Shown piece by piece: positions 6,113 through 31,977 of a stretch of 41,006 nucleotides of DNA (the stretch's first letter is position 1; each line of letters opens with the position of its first letter). Position numbers and translations under genes: made by a program. The notes beneath the pieces were generated by a model. It did not search any database. It worked only from the letters and a program-made list of their open reading frames with translations, and was not told the DNA's origin. Origin of the DNA: Deltaproteobacteria bacterium (GTDB taxonomy: Bacteria > Myxococcota_A > Polyangia > Polyangiales > B10-G4); contig QMMC01000007.1 in NCBI GenBank assembly GCA_003647065.1, positions 1-41,006 on the forward strand. Direction: 5' to 3'.

Positions 6113-6876
6113 TGGAGTTGAAGGTCCTCGGCTGCCACGGTGGAGAGACGCCGAAGCATCGGACGTCGAGTTTCCTGGTCAACGACCGCCTCGCCCTCGA
6201 CGCCGGCGCGCTCACCAACACCTTGACCCTCGACGAGCAGCAGAGGATCGAGGCCGTCGTGGTGAGCCACGCCCACATGGACCACGTCCGTGACCTGGCC
6301 ACCATCGCCGACAACCGATGTCAGCAGGATGGCCCGCCGCTGACCATCGCTGGTACTGCCGCGACCATCGGCGCGCTGCGAAAGCACTTCTTCAACGACC
6401 TGCTCTGGCCGGACTTTGCGAACATCGACACGTCTCAAGGGCCGACGATTCGGTGGCAGATCATCAAGCCCGAGGAGACGGCCGAGTTCGCCGGCCTCGA
6501 GATCACTCCGGTGCTCGTGTCTCACACCATCGAGACCGCGGGGTTCGTGGTGGCGGACGGCACCTCGTCCATCGCTTACAGCGGGGATACCGGCCCGACC
6601 GACCGTTTCTGGGAGGTACTCCGGGAGCGCGACGACCTCCGGGCCATCTTGATGGAAGTGAGCTTCCCGAGCGACCAGACGGATCTCGCCCACGTCTCCG
6701 GCCACCACACCCCGAAGACCCTGGCCAAGGAGCTCTCGAAGCTCCCCGCCGAAGACATCCCGGTGCTGCTCTTTCACATCAAGCCCGTGTTCCAAGGCCC
6801 CGTCGAACGCGAGCTGGCGAAGATCAAGCGGCGCAACCTCAACGTCCTCCAGCTCGAAGACCAGTTCCTCTTCTGA
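6112..6876 (+). CDS. MBL-fold class II 3',5'-cyclic-nucleotide phosphodiesterase-like
   Basis: VVVSHAHMDHVRDL metal motif, AYSGDTGPTD, LMEVSFPSD, LFHIKPVFQ: PDEase_II-like; start overlaps the regulator stop by 1 nt. Confidence 0.85.
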   Translation: MELKVLGCHGGETPKHRTSSFLVNDRLALDAGALTNTLTLDEQQRIEAVVVSHAHMDHVRDLATIADNRCQQDGPPLTIAGTAATIGALRKHFFNDLLWPDFANIDTSQGPTIRWQIIKPEETAEFAGLEITPVLVSHTIETAGFVVADGTSSIAYSGDTGPTDRFWEVLRERDDLRAILMEVSFPSDQTDLAHVSGHHTPKTLAKELSKLPAEDIPVLLFHIKPVFQGPVERELAKIKRRNLNVLQLEDQFLF

Positions 6877-15084: not shown

Positions 15085-16512
15085 TCAAAACCCGAGGGTG
15101 CCCATCGCTTGGTCGTGGACTTGGCGTTGAATTTGCTGGCGGTCCTCGGCGGGCATCGCAGGAGCGGGCCGCGGTTCGTGAGCTTCCTCGGCCTCGGGCT
15201 CGGCATCGTCGCTCCCTTCGGCGGAGGCCGCGGTTCCGACGGTTGGGGGAAGCGAGTTCCGGAGCGACGCCATCGACGAGACCTGGGCTTCCAGCACCTC
15301 GTCACCGTCCAGCGCATATCCGTTGGCCTCCTGCTCGGCTCGTTCGAGCATGGCCCGGGCCTCGGCGACGTTGCCGTTGCGGTTCAGACGGATCGCCTGC
15401 ACCGTGGCCGCGGCCGCCTGCATGCGCGCCGCTTCGCTTTCGAGCTCGGCGTCGCGGCCGCGGGCGATCTCTTCGTCGTCGTCCGATGCCTTGGCTCCGA
15501 GGAAGACCCGTCGCTCGAGGTGTCCGGCTTCGGCGACCGCGTCATCGAAGCCGAGGTGCACGTCCATCAACTCCACCGTCGCTCCGGCACGGCGCCCTTC
15601 GGCGGTCGCGCGCACGATGAGGTCCCGGTGCTCGCCCTCGTGAAGGTCACCGAGGTGAACCTCGACGAAGCCGCCGACGTGCTGGACGTTTTGCCCTACG
15701 ACGTTCTGGATCGTGACTCCCGGCCCCGGCTGCAGACGCACGACGGCGTTCCGACCGAAGACCCGCTGCATGCGCATCACCTCGTCACGGAAGAGCGTCG
15801 CCACCTGCTCGGACTCTTCGACGTAGTGAAACTGCCCGCCGCTCACCTGAGCGACGTCGCCCATCAAGGTCTCGTTGTAGTCGAGGCCGAGGCCGATTGC
15901 CGTCACCGTCATGCCCCGCTCCCCGGCGGCCTGGGCCATGGCGACGATGCCCGCCTCTTCGTTGGGCACTCCGTCGCCGAGCAATACCACCCGGTTCACG
16001 CCGTTCGGCTCGTAGTGAGTCATGAGCTCGGTGAGCCCCGCCTGGAGGCCGCCGGCCATGTCGGTCGTGCCCTGGGCCTCCATTTCGGCGATGCGCGCTC
16101 GGAGTTCGGCGAGGTTGTCTTCGATCACCGTCGACGGCAGCAAGACCTCCGCCGAGCTGTGGAAGGCCACCACGCTGAGTCGGTCACCTTCGCGAAGAAG
16201 ATCGACGATGGTGAGCGCCGCGTCTCGGGCATCTTCGATGGGCTCACCGGCCATGGAGCCCGAGGTGTCGATCACCAGGGCGAGGTTGAGCGGCGGGCGT
16301 CCAGTCCCATCCACGGGCTGGGTGCTGATCCGGATGCGCGCCAGCACCTCACCGTTTTGCCCCGCCGGCACGAAGGCGTTGCCCAGGCTGCCGCTGAGGG
16401 AGATCACCCCCGGATCTTCGTTTTCCGTCGTCGACGTACCGCCGCAGCTCGCCCCGAAAGCGAGCACCGCAACTACCCCGAGCACACCCAGCACCGTCAT
16501 CGTTTTCGTCAT
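15085..16512 (-). CDS. VWA domain lipoprotein
   Basis: VVAVLAFGASCGG lipobox; LNLALVIDTSGSMAGEPIEDAR MIDAS motif; VVLLGDGVPNE. Confidence 0.92.
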   Translation of the reverse strand: MTKTMTVLGVLGVVAVLAFGASCGGTSTTENEDPGVISLSGSLGNAFVPAGQNGEVLARIRISTQPVDGTGRPPLNLALVIDTSGSMAGEPIEDARDAALTIVDLLREGDRLSVVAFHSSAEVLLPSTVIEDNLAELRARIAEMEAQGTTDMAGGLQAGLTELMTHYEPNGVNRVVLLGDGVPNEEAGIVAMAQAAGERGMTVTAIGLGLDYNETLMGDVAQVSGGQFHYVEESEQVATLFRDEVMRMQRVFGRNAVVRLQPGPGVTIQNVVGQNVQHVGGFVEVHLGDLHEGEHRDLIVRATAEGRRAGATVELMDVHLGFDDAVAEAGHLERRVFLGAKASDDDEEIARGRDAELESEAARMQAAAATVQAIRLNRNGNVAEARAMLERAEQEANGYALDGDEVLEAQVSSMASLRNSLPPTVGTAASAEGSDDAEPEAEEAHEPRPAPAMPAEDRQQIQRQVHDQAMGTLGF

Positions 16513-16638
16513 CGAGCCCTCTCCCGCCTCACCGGCTTCTTGCGCTTCTTGCGCGTCCGGTCGGGGCGAAGACGTCTGGCGATTCGAGTCGGTCTAGGAA
16601 AATTCGCCACCGCCCCTGGCGTCGACGAATTCGAGCCT

Positions 16639-17032
16639 TAGGCTCAATCGGTCCTTCGAATCACTCGATCCGGGGGGCGTACGATATGCGATGGATGGGT
16701 CTCAGCCCCGGAATGCTCCGAATTCCCGATGGGAATCGCATCGCTTTCATCCGGGGGTTCGTCTCGTGATCTCGTATCGCGGGGCACCGTGCCCCCCCAA
16801 CTGGAACACCCAGATAGTGGCCCGGCGCCATTTCGAGGCCGGTGTGTCCCTGGGTGCCGGCGCGAGCCGGGGAGACAAGAACGCATGAACGAAACCTGTA
16901 TCGTTGGCCTCTCGACGGAGGTGGGAGCGAGTTAGCTTCCTATGTGAGCCCTGTGCTCCCCGCTCCATCAGGAGAGGCCAGCGCGGAACGTGGGAGGGTG
17001 GTGACATAGGTGTCATCGCCCTCCTTTTTTTT
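16639..17032 (+). ncRNA. Candidate structured non-coding RNA, class unknown
   Basis: Perfect stems by eye: 16722-16727/16731-16736; 16781-16786/16790-16795; 16807-16813/16850-16856 enclosing 16822-16826/16838-16842; 16857-16861/16866-16870 with GCGA loop; 16902-16913/16972-16983 (one GU) enclosing 16924-16929/16961-16966; then a terminator. TAGGCT box at 16639. The 5' end is a guess. Confidence 0.42.
16993..17032 (+). terminator. Intrinsic terminator, 14-bp stem + T8
   Basis: GGAGGGTGGTGACA-tagg-TGTCATCGCCCTCC-TTTTTTTT; fully paired stem with two GU pairs. Confidence 0.88.
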
Positions 17033-17059: not shown

Positions 17060-17581
17060 ATGTCGAACGCGCGTTGTCACATCTTCACCGAGAAGGATGG
17101 CCTCCTCTCGAAAGTCGCCCATGACCTCCGGATCCGCGTCGACCGCTTCGACGTGAAGGTCGAGGGCGCTGGCGATGGACGGCAGGTGACCGCGACCTTC
17201 GACCCCGGGTCTCTCGTCGTCGAGACGGCGATCTCGAAGGGCGCCGACAATCCGAGCGCGCTGAGCGCAAAGGATCGGGCGAAGATCGAAAAGTCGATTC
17301 AGACCGACGTCCTCGATGTGCGGCGCAACGCCGAGATCCGGTTCACGTCGAAGAGCATCGAGGAAAGGGGTGCGGGTCTGGTCGTCACAGGCGATCTCAC
17401 GCTCCACGGCCGCACCCGGTCCCTCACCGTCGAGGCCCGTGACGCCGGGGACGCTTGGGAGGCGTCGGTCACGCTCCATCAGCCGGACTTCGGCATCAAA
17501 CCCTTCTCCGCCATGATGGGCACCCTCAAGGTGAAGCCCGACCTGCGCGTAGAGATCTCCGTCCCGAAGAGCGACGGCTGA
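17060..17581 (+). CDS. YceI-like protein
   Basis: IFTEKDGLLSKVAHDLRIRVDRFDVKV..LDVRRNAEIRFTSKSI..VTGDLTLHGRTRSLTVEA. Confidence 0.82.
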   Translation: MSNARCHIFTEKDGLLSKVAHDLRIRVDRFDVKVEGAGDGRQVTATFDPGSLVVETAISKGADNPSALSAKDRAKIEKSIQTDVLDVRRNAEIRFTSKSIEERGAGLVVTGDLTLHGRTRSLTVEARDAGDAWEASVTLHQPDFGIKPFSAMMGTLKVKPDLRVEISVPKSDG

Positions 17582-17604: not shown

Positions 17605-18708
17605 TCAATGAAGAGCGATAGTGATCGTATCGACGTCGATCGTCGGGACCTCGTCGTGGCGCGCGTCGAGGCCCAAGGCATCGAGGGTATCCCAGCGCAC
17701 CGCCCGGAGACGGAGCGTCGCCGTGATCGACGTGGCGCCCTCGGGGATCGCCACGCGGGCTTGCCGTGAATCTCCCGCCGAAAGGCTCCGAGACACGACC
17801 TCGTCCGCGTCGGTGATCAGCGCGACCGGTGCGCCGTTCAGGGTCATCTCCGCCCCGAAGGACAAGACCCGGCGAGGATTTCCGTCGCTCTCACCGTCTG
17901 GGCCGTGCGAGGAGACATCCACCCATACGTCACGGAGAAAGGCCGCTCCGGTCGGCACGGAATGCCCGGCGCCTATATTCGTGACCGTGATGATGGCGTC
18001 GCCGCCGACTCGCTCGACCTCGAGGGTCACCGCATCCCGGAAGAGCTCTCGGGCGTCATTCGCGGCGCGCTGGGCTTCTTCTTCGCTCGCGCCCCACGGC
18101 GGGTCGAGGCCAACGAAGCGGTGCTCTCCTTCGGGCATGTGGCAGGTCGCGCACGAGATGTCTGCCTCGGCGAAGTCGCTCGCGCGGTGCTCGGTGAGGG
18201 TCGGCTCGTCGAGGAGCCCAGGGCCCGTCACCTCGTGGCAGGTGCCGCAGAGCGACGCCGAGGTCAGGAACCCCGTCGTTCGGATTTCATGGGCGCCGTT
18301 GCTGCCTTCGCCGGTCGGACCGATCAGCGGAAGGCCCCAGTCGACGCGCAGGCGTCCGTCGCGCTCGCCGGTATTGCCGGTGGCGGCGTGGCAGGAGACG
18401 CAGCCGATGCCCATCTCTCCGTCGGGCCCCCCGTGGCTGGGCTGATGGCAATCGATGCAGGCGTCGCGAGCGCTCACGCCCCACGCACCCTCGACCTCGA
18501 CGAGGAGGGCCTCGAAGACCGGCGACGTACCGCTCGTCGCGTGGGGGCTCGTCGCCCACGCGGCGTACTCTTCTTCGTGACACGTCCCGCAGCTCTCGGC
18601 CTCCGGCCCGAAAGGAAGCGCCGCGCTCTCTTGCGAGCATCCGCCTATGGCGATGAGGGCGATGAGGGCGACCGGTGCCCACCGAATGCCGAAGCCGAAG
18701 CGGTTCAT
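17605..18708 (-). CDS. Multiheme c-type cytochrome lipoprotein (5 CxxCH)
   Basis: IALIAIGGCSQ lipobox; CGTCH, CIDCH, CVSCH, CGTCH, CATCH. Confidence 0.88.
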   Translation of the reverse strand: MNRFGFGIRWAPVALIALIAIGGCSQESAALPFGPEAESCGTCHEEEYAAWATSPHATSGTSPVFEALLVEVEGAWGVSARDACIDCHQPSHGGPDGEMGIGCVSCHAATGNTGERDGRLRVDWGLPLIGPTGEGSNGAHEIRTTGFLTSASLCGTCHEVTGPGLLDEPTLTEHRASDFAEADISCATCHMPEGEHRFVGLDPPWGASEEEAQRAANDARELFRDAVTLEVERVGGDAIITVTNIGAGHSVPTGAAFLRDVWVDVSSHGPDGESDGNPRRVLSFGAEMTLNGAPVALITDADEVVSRSLSAGDSRQARVAIPEGATSITATLRLRAVRWDTLDALGLDARHDEVPTIDVDTITIALH

Positions 18709-30867: not shown

Positions 30868-31977
30868 CTAAACGTTGAAGCGGAAGTGCATGACGTCGCC
30901 GTCTTTGACGACGTACTCCTTGCCTTCGATGCCCATCTTGCCGGCCGATTTGACGGCGGCCTCGCTGCCGAGGTCGATGAGGTCTTTCCAGTGCATGACC
31001 TCGGCCTTGATGAAGCCGCGCTCGAAGTCCGTGTGGATCTTGCCCGCGGCGCCGGGGGCTTTGGTGCCGCGGGTGATGGTCCAGGCGCGGACCTCGACCT
31101 CACCGGCGGTGAAGTAGGTGATGAGGTTCAGCATGCCGTAGCCGGTGCGGATCACGTCGTTGAGGCCCGGCTCTTCGAGGCCCACGGACTCGAGGAACTC
31201 GCCTCGGTCCTCGGCGTCGAGCTGCATGATCTCGGCTTCGATGGCGGCGCAGATGGGCACGACGGGGACGCCGCGCTTCTCGCCCACCTCGTTCACCGCT
31301 TGCACGTGGGCGTTCTTGCTCGGCTCCGCCGCGTCGTCTTCGCTGACGTTGGTGACGTAGAACATCGGCTTGCTGGTGAGCAGGCAGAGGTCGTAGACGA
31401 TGCTTCCTTCGTCGGTGTCGTCGGGGTTGGGCTCGAAGTTCGACGCGAGGTCTCCGCCGTCGAGGATCTTTTCGAGGGCCTCACAGACCACGACGGCCTT
31501 CTTTTCGATCGGGTCCTTGCCCTTCGAAGCTCTGCGCGCCTTGTCGAGGCGCTTCTGGACCGTCTCGAGGTCTTTGAGGATGAGCTCGGTCTCGATGGTC
31601 TCGATGTCTGCCACGGGGTCGATGCGGCCATCGACGTGGACGATGTTGTCGTCCTCGAAGCAGCGCACGACGTGGGCGACGGCGTCGACGTCGCGGATGT
31701 GGCTGAGGAACGCGTTGCCCTTGCCCTCACCTTTCGAGGCCCCCTTCACCAGTCCGGCGATGTCGATGAACTCGACGGTCGCGGGGACCTGCTTCTTGGG
31801 CACGACCTTTTCGACCAGGGCGTCGAAACGCACGTCCGGTACCGGGACCACGCCGACGTTCGGCTCGATGGTGCAAAACGCGTAGTTGGCTGCCTCGGCC
31901 TGGGCCGACGAGAGCGCGTTGAAGAGCGTGGACTTGCCGACGTTCGGGAGCCCGACGATGCCTACCTTGAGTGTCAC
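30868..31977 (-). CDS. ychF: Redox-regulated ATPase/GTPase YchF
   Basis: MTLKVGIVGLPNVGKSTLFNALSSAQAEAANYAFCTIEPNVGVVPVPD; C-terminal TGS region AWTITRGTKAPGAAGKIHTDFERGFIKAEV. Confidence 0.96.
   Translation of the reverse strand: MTLKVGIVGLPNVGKSTLFNALSSAQAEAANYAFCTIEPNVGVVPVPDVRFDALVEKVVPKKQVPATVEFIDIAGLVKGASKGEGKGNAFLSHIRDVDAVAHVVRCFEDDNIVHVDGRIDPVADIETIETELILKDLETVQKRLDKARRASKGKDPIEKKAVVVCEALEKILDGGDLASNFEPNPDDTDEGSIVYDLCLLTSKPMFYVTNVSEDDAAEPSKNAHVQAVNEVGEKRGVPVVPICAAIEAEIMQLDAEDRGEFLESVGLEEPGLNDVIRTGYGMLNLITYFTAGEVEVRAWTITRGTKAPGAAGKIHTDFERGFIKAEVMHWKDLIDLGSEAAVKSAGKMGIEGKEYVVKDGDVMHFRFNV

Follow-up and report, generated by a model that had tools for sequence, protein, structure and literature searches.

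An RNA gene that appears to be previously undescribed, and that is almost certainly real and conserved, lies between a VWA-domain gene and a YceI-like gene in the window (the whole 41,006-nucleotide stretch of DNA analysed here, contig C7 of a draft genome of 7.1 Mb in 594 contigs). Its predicted transcript carries a tiny ORF which is very probably translated, and the best reading of its conservation is that selection acts on the act of translation rather than on the peptide. What could such a translation event be for? The best fit to the sequence data, to which a probability of about 0.5 is given, is a regulatory RNA switched by the ribosome, which would translate the tiny ORF and then be held at its stop.

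The initial annotation had described the gap as a candidate novel noncoding RNA made of a series of stems. Every stem it named is found in the sequence and has been assigned coordinates (Table 1), and its terminator is real: a 15-pair hairpin at 16992-17025 with a T8 tract running to 17032. The conserved, structured, terminator-ended plus-strand RNA of about 340 nt without an Rfam family stands; the word noncoding is not supported, and neither is the statement that no convincing plus-strand gene precedes the terminator, as a reading frame lies in front of it. Folding energies alone would have given a smaller object. The 3' part (16880-17032) has a folding energy of -75.5 kcal/mol (z -6.04; none of 200 shuffles equal), a z-score among the strongest in a scan of the 41-kb window, while the 5' part (16639-16880) folded alone has the stability of its shuffles (z -0.17). 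Folding stability by itself would thus have supported an RNA of only ~150 nt and the 5' stems, in a part no stabler than shuffles, required comparative support, which reaches most of 16692-17031. Two other low-energy spots (31001-31120, which falls inside the YchF gene, and 6201-6320) became less extreme when refolded in longer stretches (z -3.1 and -2.4).

Table 1. Features of the RNA locus and flanking genes (window coordinates).
Feature	Position	Strand	Remark
VWA-domain gene	15085-16512	minus	left flank of the gap
Predicted promoter -10 element TACGAT	16680-16685	plus	predicted from TANNNT clustering in relatives
Proposed RNA, ~340 nt	16692-17031	plus	covariation, class-wide homologues, terminator
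5' hairpin CGG-AATGCT-CCG	16709-16720	plus	loop AAUGGU in most relatives
Hairpin ATTCCC/GGGAAT	16722-16727/16731-16736	plus	sequence; similar hairpins at the corresponding position of relatives, no formal count
Hairpin GGGGCA/TGCCCC	16781-16786/16790-16795	plus	sequence; look-alikes in relatives, no formal count
Conserved GGAAC motif	16803-16813	plus	continues into the 5' strand of P1'
Helix P1' CACCCAG/CTGGGTG	16807-16813/16850-16856	plus	7/7 pairs with compensatory change (35 sequences)
Hairpin P1 CCGGC/GCCGG	16822-16826/16838-16842	plus	inside P1'
Hairpin P2 CCGGC-GCGA-GCCGG	16857-16870	plus	directly after P1', against the Shine-Dalgarno
Shine-Dalgarno GGGGAG of the tiny ORF	16869-16874	plus	
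Tiny ORF, 16 codons + TAG	16885-16935	plus	MNETCIVGLSTEVGAS
Helix P3 CGTTGGCCTCTC/GAGAGGCCAGCG	16902-16913/16972-16983	plus	12-bp stem of the initial annotation
Internal Shine-Dalgarno-like GGAGG	16917-16921	plus	11 nt 5' of the stop codon
Intrinsic terminator	16992-17032	plus	15-pair hairpin + T8
YceI-like gene	17060-17581	plus	right flank of the gap
Multihaem cytochrome c554-like protein gene	17605-18708	minus	adjoins YceI
YchF gene	30868-31977	minus	14 kb from the RNA

How widely does this RNA occur? The closest relatives compared share only the order with the source genome. Plain blastn against 179 genomes of that order returned the window's own copy only, the regions upstream of 31 YceI homologues held no comparable terminator, and local blastn and nhmmer gave weak matches only; the idea of a cis-element belonging to YceI was rejected on these grounds. 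As these approaches gave little, a covariance model was adopted. The first model (R1) was built from the single window sequence 16890-17028, which excludes the ribosome-binding site and the start codon, and it matched over its full length in 14 genomes of f5, a family other than that of the source genome (E 3e-7 to 0.01). Several of these matches share contig and strand with a YceI gene, lying 54 nt upstream of it in G030, ~640 nt away in G061 and ~4.4 kb away in others. A second model of 14 sequences (R2), including the Shine-Dalgarno (SD) and ATG, matched 29 of the 34 f5 genomes at E up to 1, plus several further families; two of its matches (G245, G274b) were judged false on reading. In the Polyangia, a class of soil bacteria, the third model (R3; 35 sequences, spanning the GGAAC motif to the ORF and again including SD and ATG) had matches with E no higher than 0.01 in 166 of the 310 genomes sampled, and all but one of these genomes have a single copy. 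The rest of the class sample, about half of it, gave no match. Beyond the class, the phylum sample yielded only three matches, of which one is convincing; members lacking an SD or ATG are under-sampled in these counts, as R2 and R3 contain both. A motif search allowing two mismatches recovered members in families f1 and f5, plus apparent chance matches without the SD-ORF arrangement (L075, L092-L100). The element is single copy in the source genome, by which paralogues or a dispersed repeat were rejected, and the SD-ORF pattern had no match in IMG/VR, so viral spread was rejected too.

The paired regions carry the comparative case for the RNA class and its helices P1', P1 and P2, all of which are established at the level of sequence. 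Over 35 sequences, 17 of the 21 pairs in these three helices have compensatory changes. Doubly changed cells number 85 (27.9 in shuffles), and the covariation score is 0.319, vs 0.155 shuffled and at most 0.106 when the partners are slid. A lack of covariation among homologues was one of the outcomes that the initial annotation had named as able to refute it, a strong Rfam match being another, and the RNA reading survives both checks. Taken individually, P1 in the relatives is paired in 73% of cells and has compensatory changes in 9/9 aligned pairs (the P1 of the window aligns poorly with theirs), and P2 is paired in 96.6% of cells with one compensated pair. Further downstream, where 14 sequences were compared, P3 is paired in 95.5% of cells with two compensated pairs, and the terminator has five. 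P3 pairs the second half of the ORF with the sequence after it, enclosing the stop codon. As such it is shown for the f1/f5 set; class-wide, exact complementarity between the ORF end and the following sequence averages 5.8 nt, barely above the 5.4 of shuffles, and CCTCC-like motifs within 12 nt 3' of the stop are enriched (48/117 members vs 10.3 expected). A terminator-like 3' end is present in 68 of the 102 members compared, vs 3 in shuffles.

At the other end, the 5' hairpin loop motif with its three flanking pairs occurs in 39/104 members (shuffle mean 1.6), and these pairs exchange GC, CG, AT and TA among members. A TANNNT sequence clusters 30-39 nt 5' of this hairpin in 17 of the 39 relatives; in the window the corresponding TACGAT lies at a distance of 28 nt. 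It is better placed than the TAGGCT at 16639 previously suggested as promoter. It has no good -35 and a sigma-70 scan reports no site there. From the 5' hairpin and the position of TANNNT in relatives we infer a transcript start near 16692 and a length near 340 nt, and the exact ends likewise.

The tiny ORF is where the RNA departs from a purely structural element. All the members found by R1 have an SD (GGGGGAGG or, in the window, GGGGAG), an ATG, 15-16 codons and a stop, and across all members the length varies between 13 and 23 codons. GGAG at the upstream SD position is nearly invariant, mostly 9-10 nt from the ATG. Among the 110 members with a recognisable P2 and SD, 104 have an ATG at ribosome spacing where 12.7 are expected, a share somewhat inflated by the inclusion of SD and ATG in R2 and R3 (the R1 set is unaffected). 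When the ATG is picked independently of the stop position, an in-frame stop follows at 12-24 codons in 103/104; the two remaining frames reach 29 and 14. This test is not obviously affected by the content of R2 and R3. Furthermore TAG, TAA and TGA are all in use, and alignment gaps up to GGAGG are multiples of three. Start, frame and stop are thus conserved in the sequences compared, a strong signature of conserved translation of the ORF.

Is the peptide conserved as well? Judged from its codons, hardly. Close pairs have 116 nonsynonymous and 43 synonymous changes, independent pairs 35 and 16, and random changes give a ratio of 2.4-3.1. The residues which do recur, M-x-S-T near the start and an E five from the end, track conserved nucleotides, namely the AGT serine codons and the GGAGG from which the E derives. 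AGT makes up 40% of the serine codons in the tiny ORFs compared with 1.8% in six window genes, an excess by which the nucleotides seem to matter as such; AGT is rare in these genomes, and the conservation of AGT-ACC hints at a separate constraint on the nucleotides, which may be pairing or slow decoding. The strongly conserved AGT near the ORF start, in the context AGT-ACC, can be seen for example at loci L245, L251 and L255.

A second SD-like sequence lies inside the ORF. GGAGG, exact or one base off, is found 8-12 nt 5' of the stop in 95/103 ORFs (12.7 in codon shuffles), and distances of 11 and 8 nt are preferred. Could the ribosome restart there? Translation restart at this site was rejected, as start codons are depleted after it: a start codon at positions 4-13 after GGAGG occurs in 4/99 ORFs vs 24.7-29.0 expected, the lowest of 500 trials being 16. 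Sequence comparison thus shows both the internal SD and the scarcity of start codons behind it, that is, a strong ribosome-binding sequence kept at fixed spacing to the stop with initiation apparently selected against, this last because start codons are depleted. Ribosome geometry offers a possible explanation. When the ribosome reads the stop codon, 8 or 5 nt separate GGAGG from the last sense codon, which is the usual distance from an SD to the P site, and for this reason a held terminating ribosome is proposed. The internal GGAGG could instead be a protein site or a structural partner.

In the proposed mechanism, a ribosome would initiate at the SD set against the stacked P1' and P2 and, while translating, would unfold the structure of the second half of the ORF (P3 in the window). 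At the stop its anti-SD would pair with the GGAGG inside the ORF, in most members 8 or 11 nt upstream, and the terminating ribosome would be held, with the near absence of start codons after GGAGG blocking re-initiation. Two states would follow: a ribosome-free state in which P3 is formed and the internal SD hidden, and a ribosome-held state in which the 3' region is open. Such a switch could set the stability of the RNA or expose a regulatory surface. Transcription itself is inferred, as are the holding of the ribosome, the switching and any target. More tentatively still, and with somewhat less than even odds, the effector may be the ribosome itself, so that this class-wide RNA would sense ribosome termination or recycling. 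To our knowledge no RNA family is known with a tiny ORF and a second SD holding the terminating ribosome. A natural test of SD-like pausing at stop codons, which is debated, would be at hand if the second SD does hold the ribosome. In any case the selection pattern, which covers start, stop, length and two ribosome-binding sites and leaves out the peptide, separates translation from its product unusually cleanly.

The main rival to a ribosome-held RNA is that the 13-23-residue peptide is the product, the RNA being a dual-function RNA or the mRNA of a microprotein. Start, SD, frame, stop and the recurrent residues would all be expected in that case, and a function based on length or charge could hide behind loose sequence conservation, but the substitution ratio equals random expectation and the recurrent residues follow the nucleotides as described above, which makes this reading rather unlikely. 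Known dual-function small RNAs such as SgrS/SgrT, RNAIII, SR1/SR1P and VcdRP/VcdP (PMC5521070, PMC8672173) encode conserved functional proteins. As predicted from sequence, the RNA described here resembles them as a stand-alone, terminator-ended RNA with a short ORF (whose translation is read from its sequence signature) and differs in its hardly conserved peptide, in having a second SD before the stop and in having no known base-pairing target; with the changes at a random ratio, the conserved functional peptide of that group was not found. Less probable again is that the RNA controls YceI as a leader-peptide attenuator by terminator read-through. YceI starts 28 nt downstream of the T-tract, with little room for a promoter of its own, and the gene order is the same in G030. 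In most relatives, however, the next gene is a different one, often convergent (in nearly all genomes of g5), and the 31 YceI homologues lack such a terminator, so a conserved co-directional gene 3' of the terminator is missing; where the next gene is convergent, this reading is excluded. The trp leader is an attenuator with a leader peptide. The speF leader also belongs to the leader-peptide/upstream-ORF attenuators (PMC6386406). As in these leaders, translation of a tiny ORF seems to matter rather than its product, and the ORF overlaps alternative structures and is followed by a terminator; unlike them, the RNA has no conserved downstream gene.

If the RNA were a sponge that captures CsrA/RsmA or another RNA-binding protein, the conserved GGA motifs would serve as its sites, and GGA indeed stands at conserved places (GGAAC, GGGGAG, CGGAGG). 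But GGA is common in GC-rich RNA, in the model it lies beside helices or within the ORF and not clearly in loops, and a sponge would not lead one to expect a fixed GGAGG-stop distance, scarce start codons or a conserved ORF; it is judged about as improbable as the attenuator. As for a known housekeeping RNA in disguise or a chance structure, the length, the mostly single copy and the internal ORF recall tmRNA, and the 5' half alone has a z near 0; the covariation, the taxonomic spread and a tmRNA at a locus of its own refute this reading, and the Rfam results speak against it too. No Rfam 15 family reaches its gathering score in the window, relaxed settings add only a chance-level match at 16612-16683 (22.4 bits vs a gathering score of 49), Rfam on 20 related loci finds unrelated tRNA only, and ARAGORN finds no tRNA or tmRNA in the window. 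Of 20 carrier genomes tested, 17 have their tmRNA, scored above its cut-off, at a different locus, and the 6S RNA (RF00013) of the source genome is elsewhere (G000:C147:13556-13673, L043; 51.1 bits). With tmRNA (RF00023) the RNA shares a length of about 350 nt, usual single copy and an internal short ORF; it differs in its SD and ATG start, absent Rfam match, terminator end and the separate tmRNA locus in the same genomes. In prfB, the ribosome is made to shift frame into a long ORF by an internal SD that lies ~3 nt from the shift site. Both have an SD-like sequence within an ORF near a stop codon, but here GGAGG precedes the stop by 8 or 11 nt in most cases and no conserved continuation is seen. 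Another small RNA of myxobacteria, Pxr of Myxococcus, is reported to have emerged in Cystobacterineae, another suborder, and is described as non-coding (PMC11928866); it is on this description that Pxr is set apart from the present RNA. In the open literature searched, the element is nowhere described. Although widespread in the class, mostly as a single copy, the RNA thus appears to be undescribed: gene callers pass over so short an ORF, and no Rfam family fits the sequence.

The genes around the RNA vary. Downstream genes differ among relatives and are often convergent, and on this genomic evidence the RNA is a stand-alone unit; YceI, by which the initial annotation would have defined homologues, is its neighbour in some lineages only. 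Genes that recur next to the RNA encode a class-II cAMP phosphodiesterase together with a cyclic-nucleotide-binding protein, or YceI, or the GTPase YchF, a recurrence that looks like ancestral gene order and not an operon. At L101-L112 (g5 genomes) the gene of the cyclic-nucleotide-binding protein and then that of the class-II cAMP phosphodiesterase are located just 5' of the RNA, and genes of these types recur near it in other families too. YchF, a ribosome-associated GTPase/ATPase, is found near the RNA in several families (loci L102, L151, L153 and L161); a functional link between it and a ribosome-binding RNA is speculative. On the far side of the gap, 5' of the VWA gene (16513-16603), a 31-base stretch has 90% identity to G027 and G018, two genomes of the same order.
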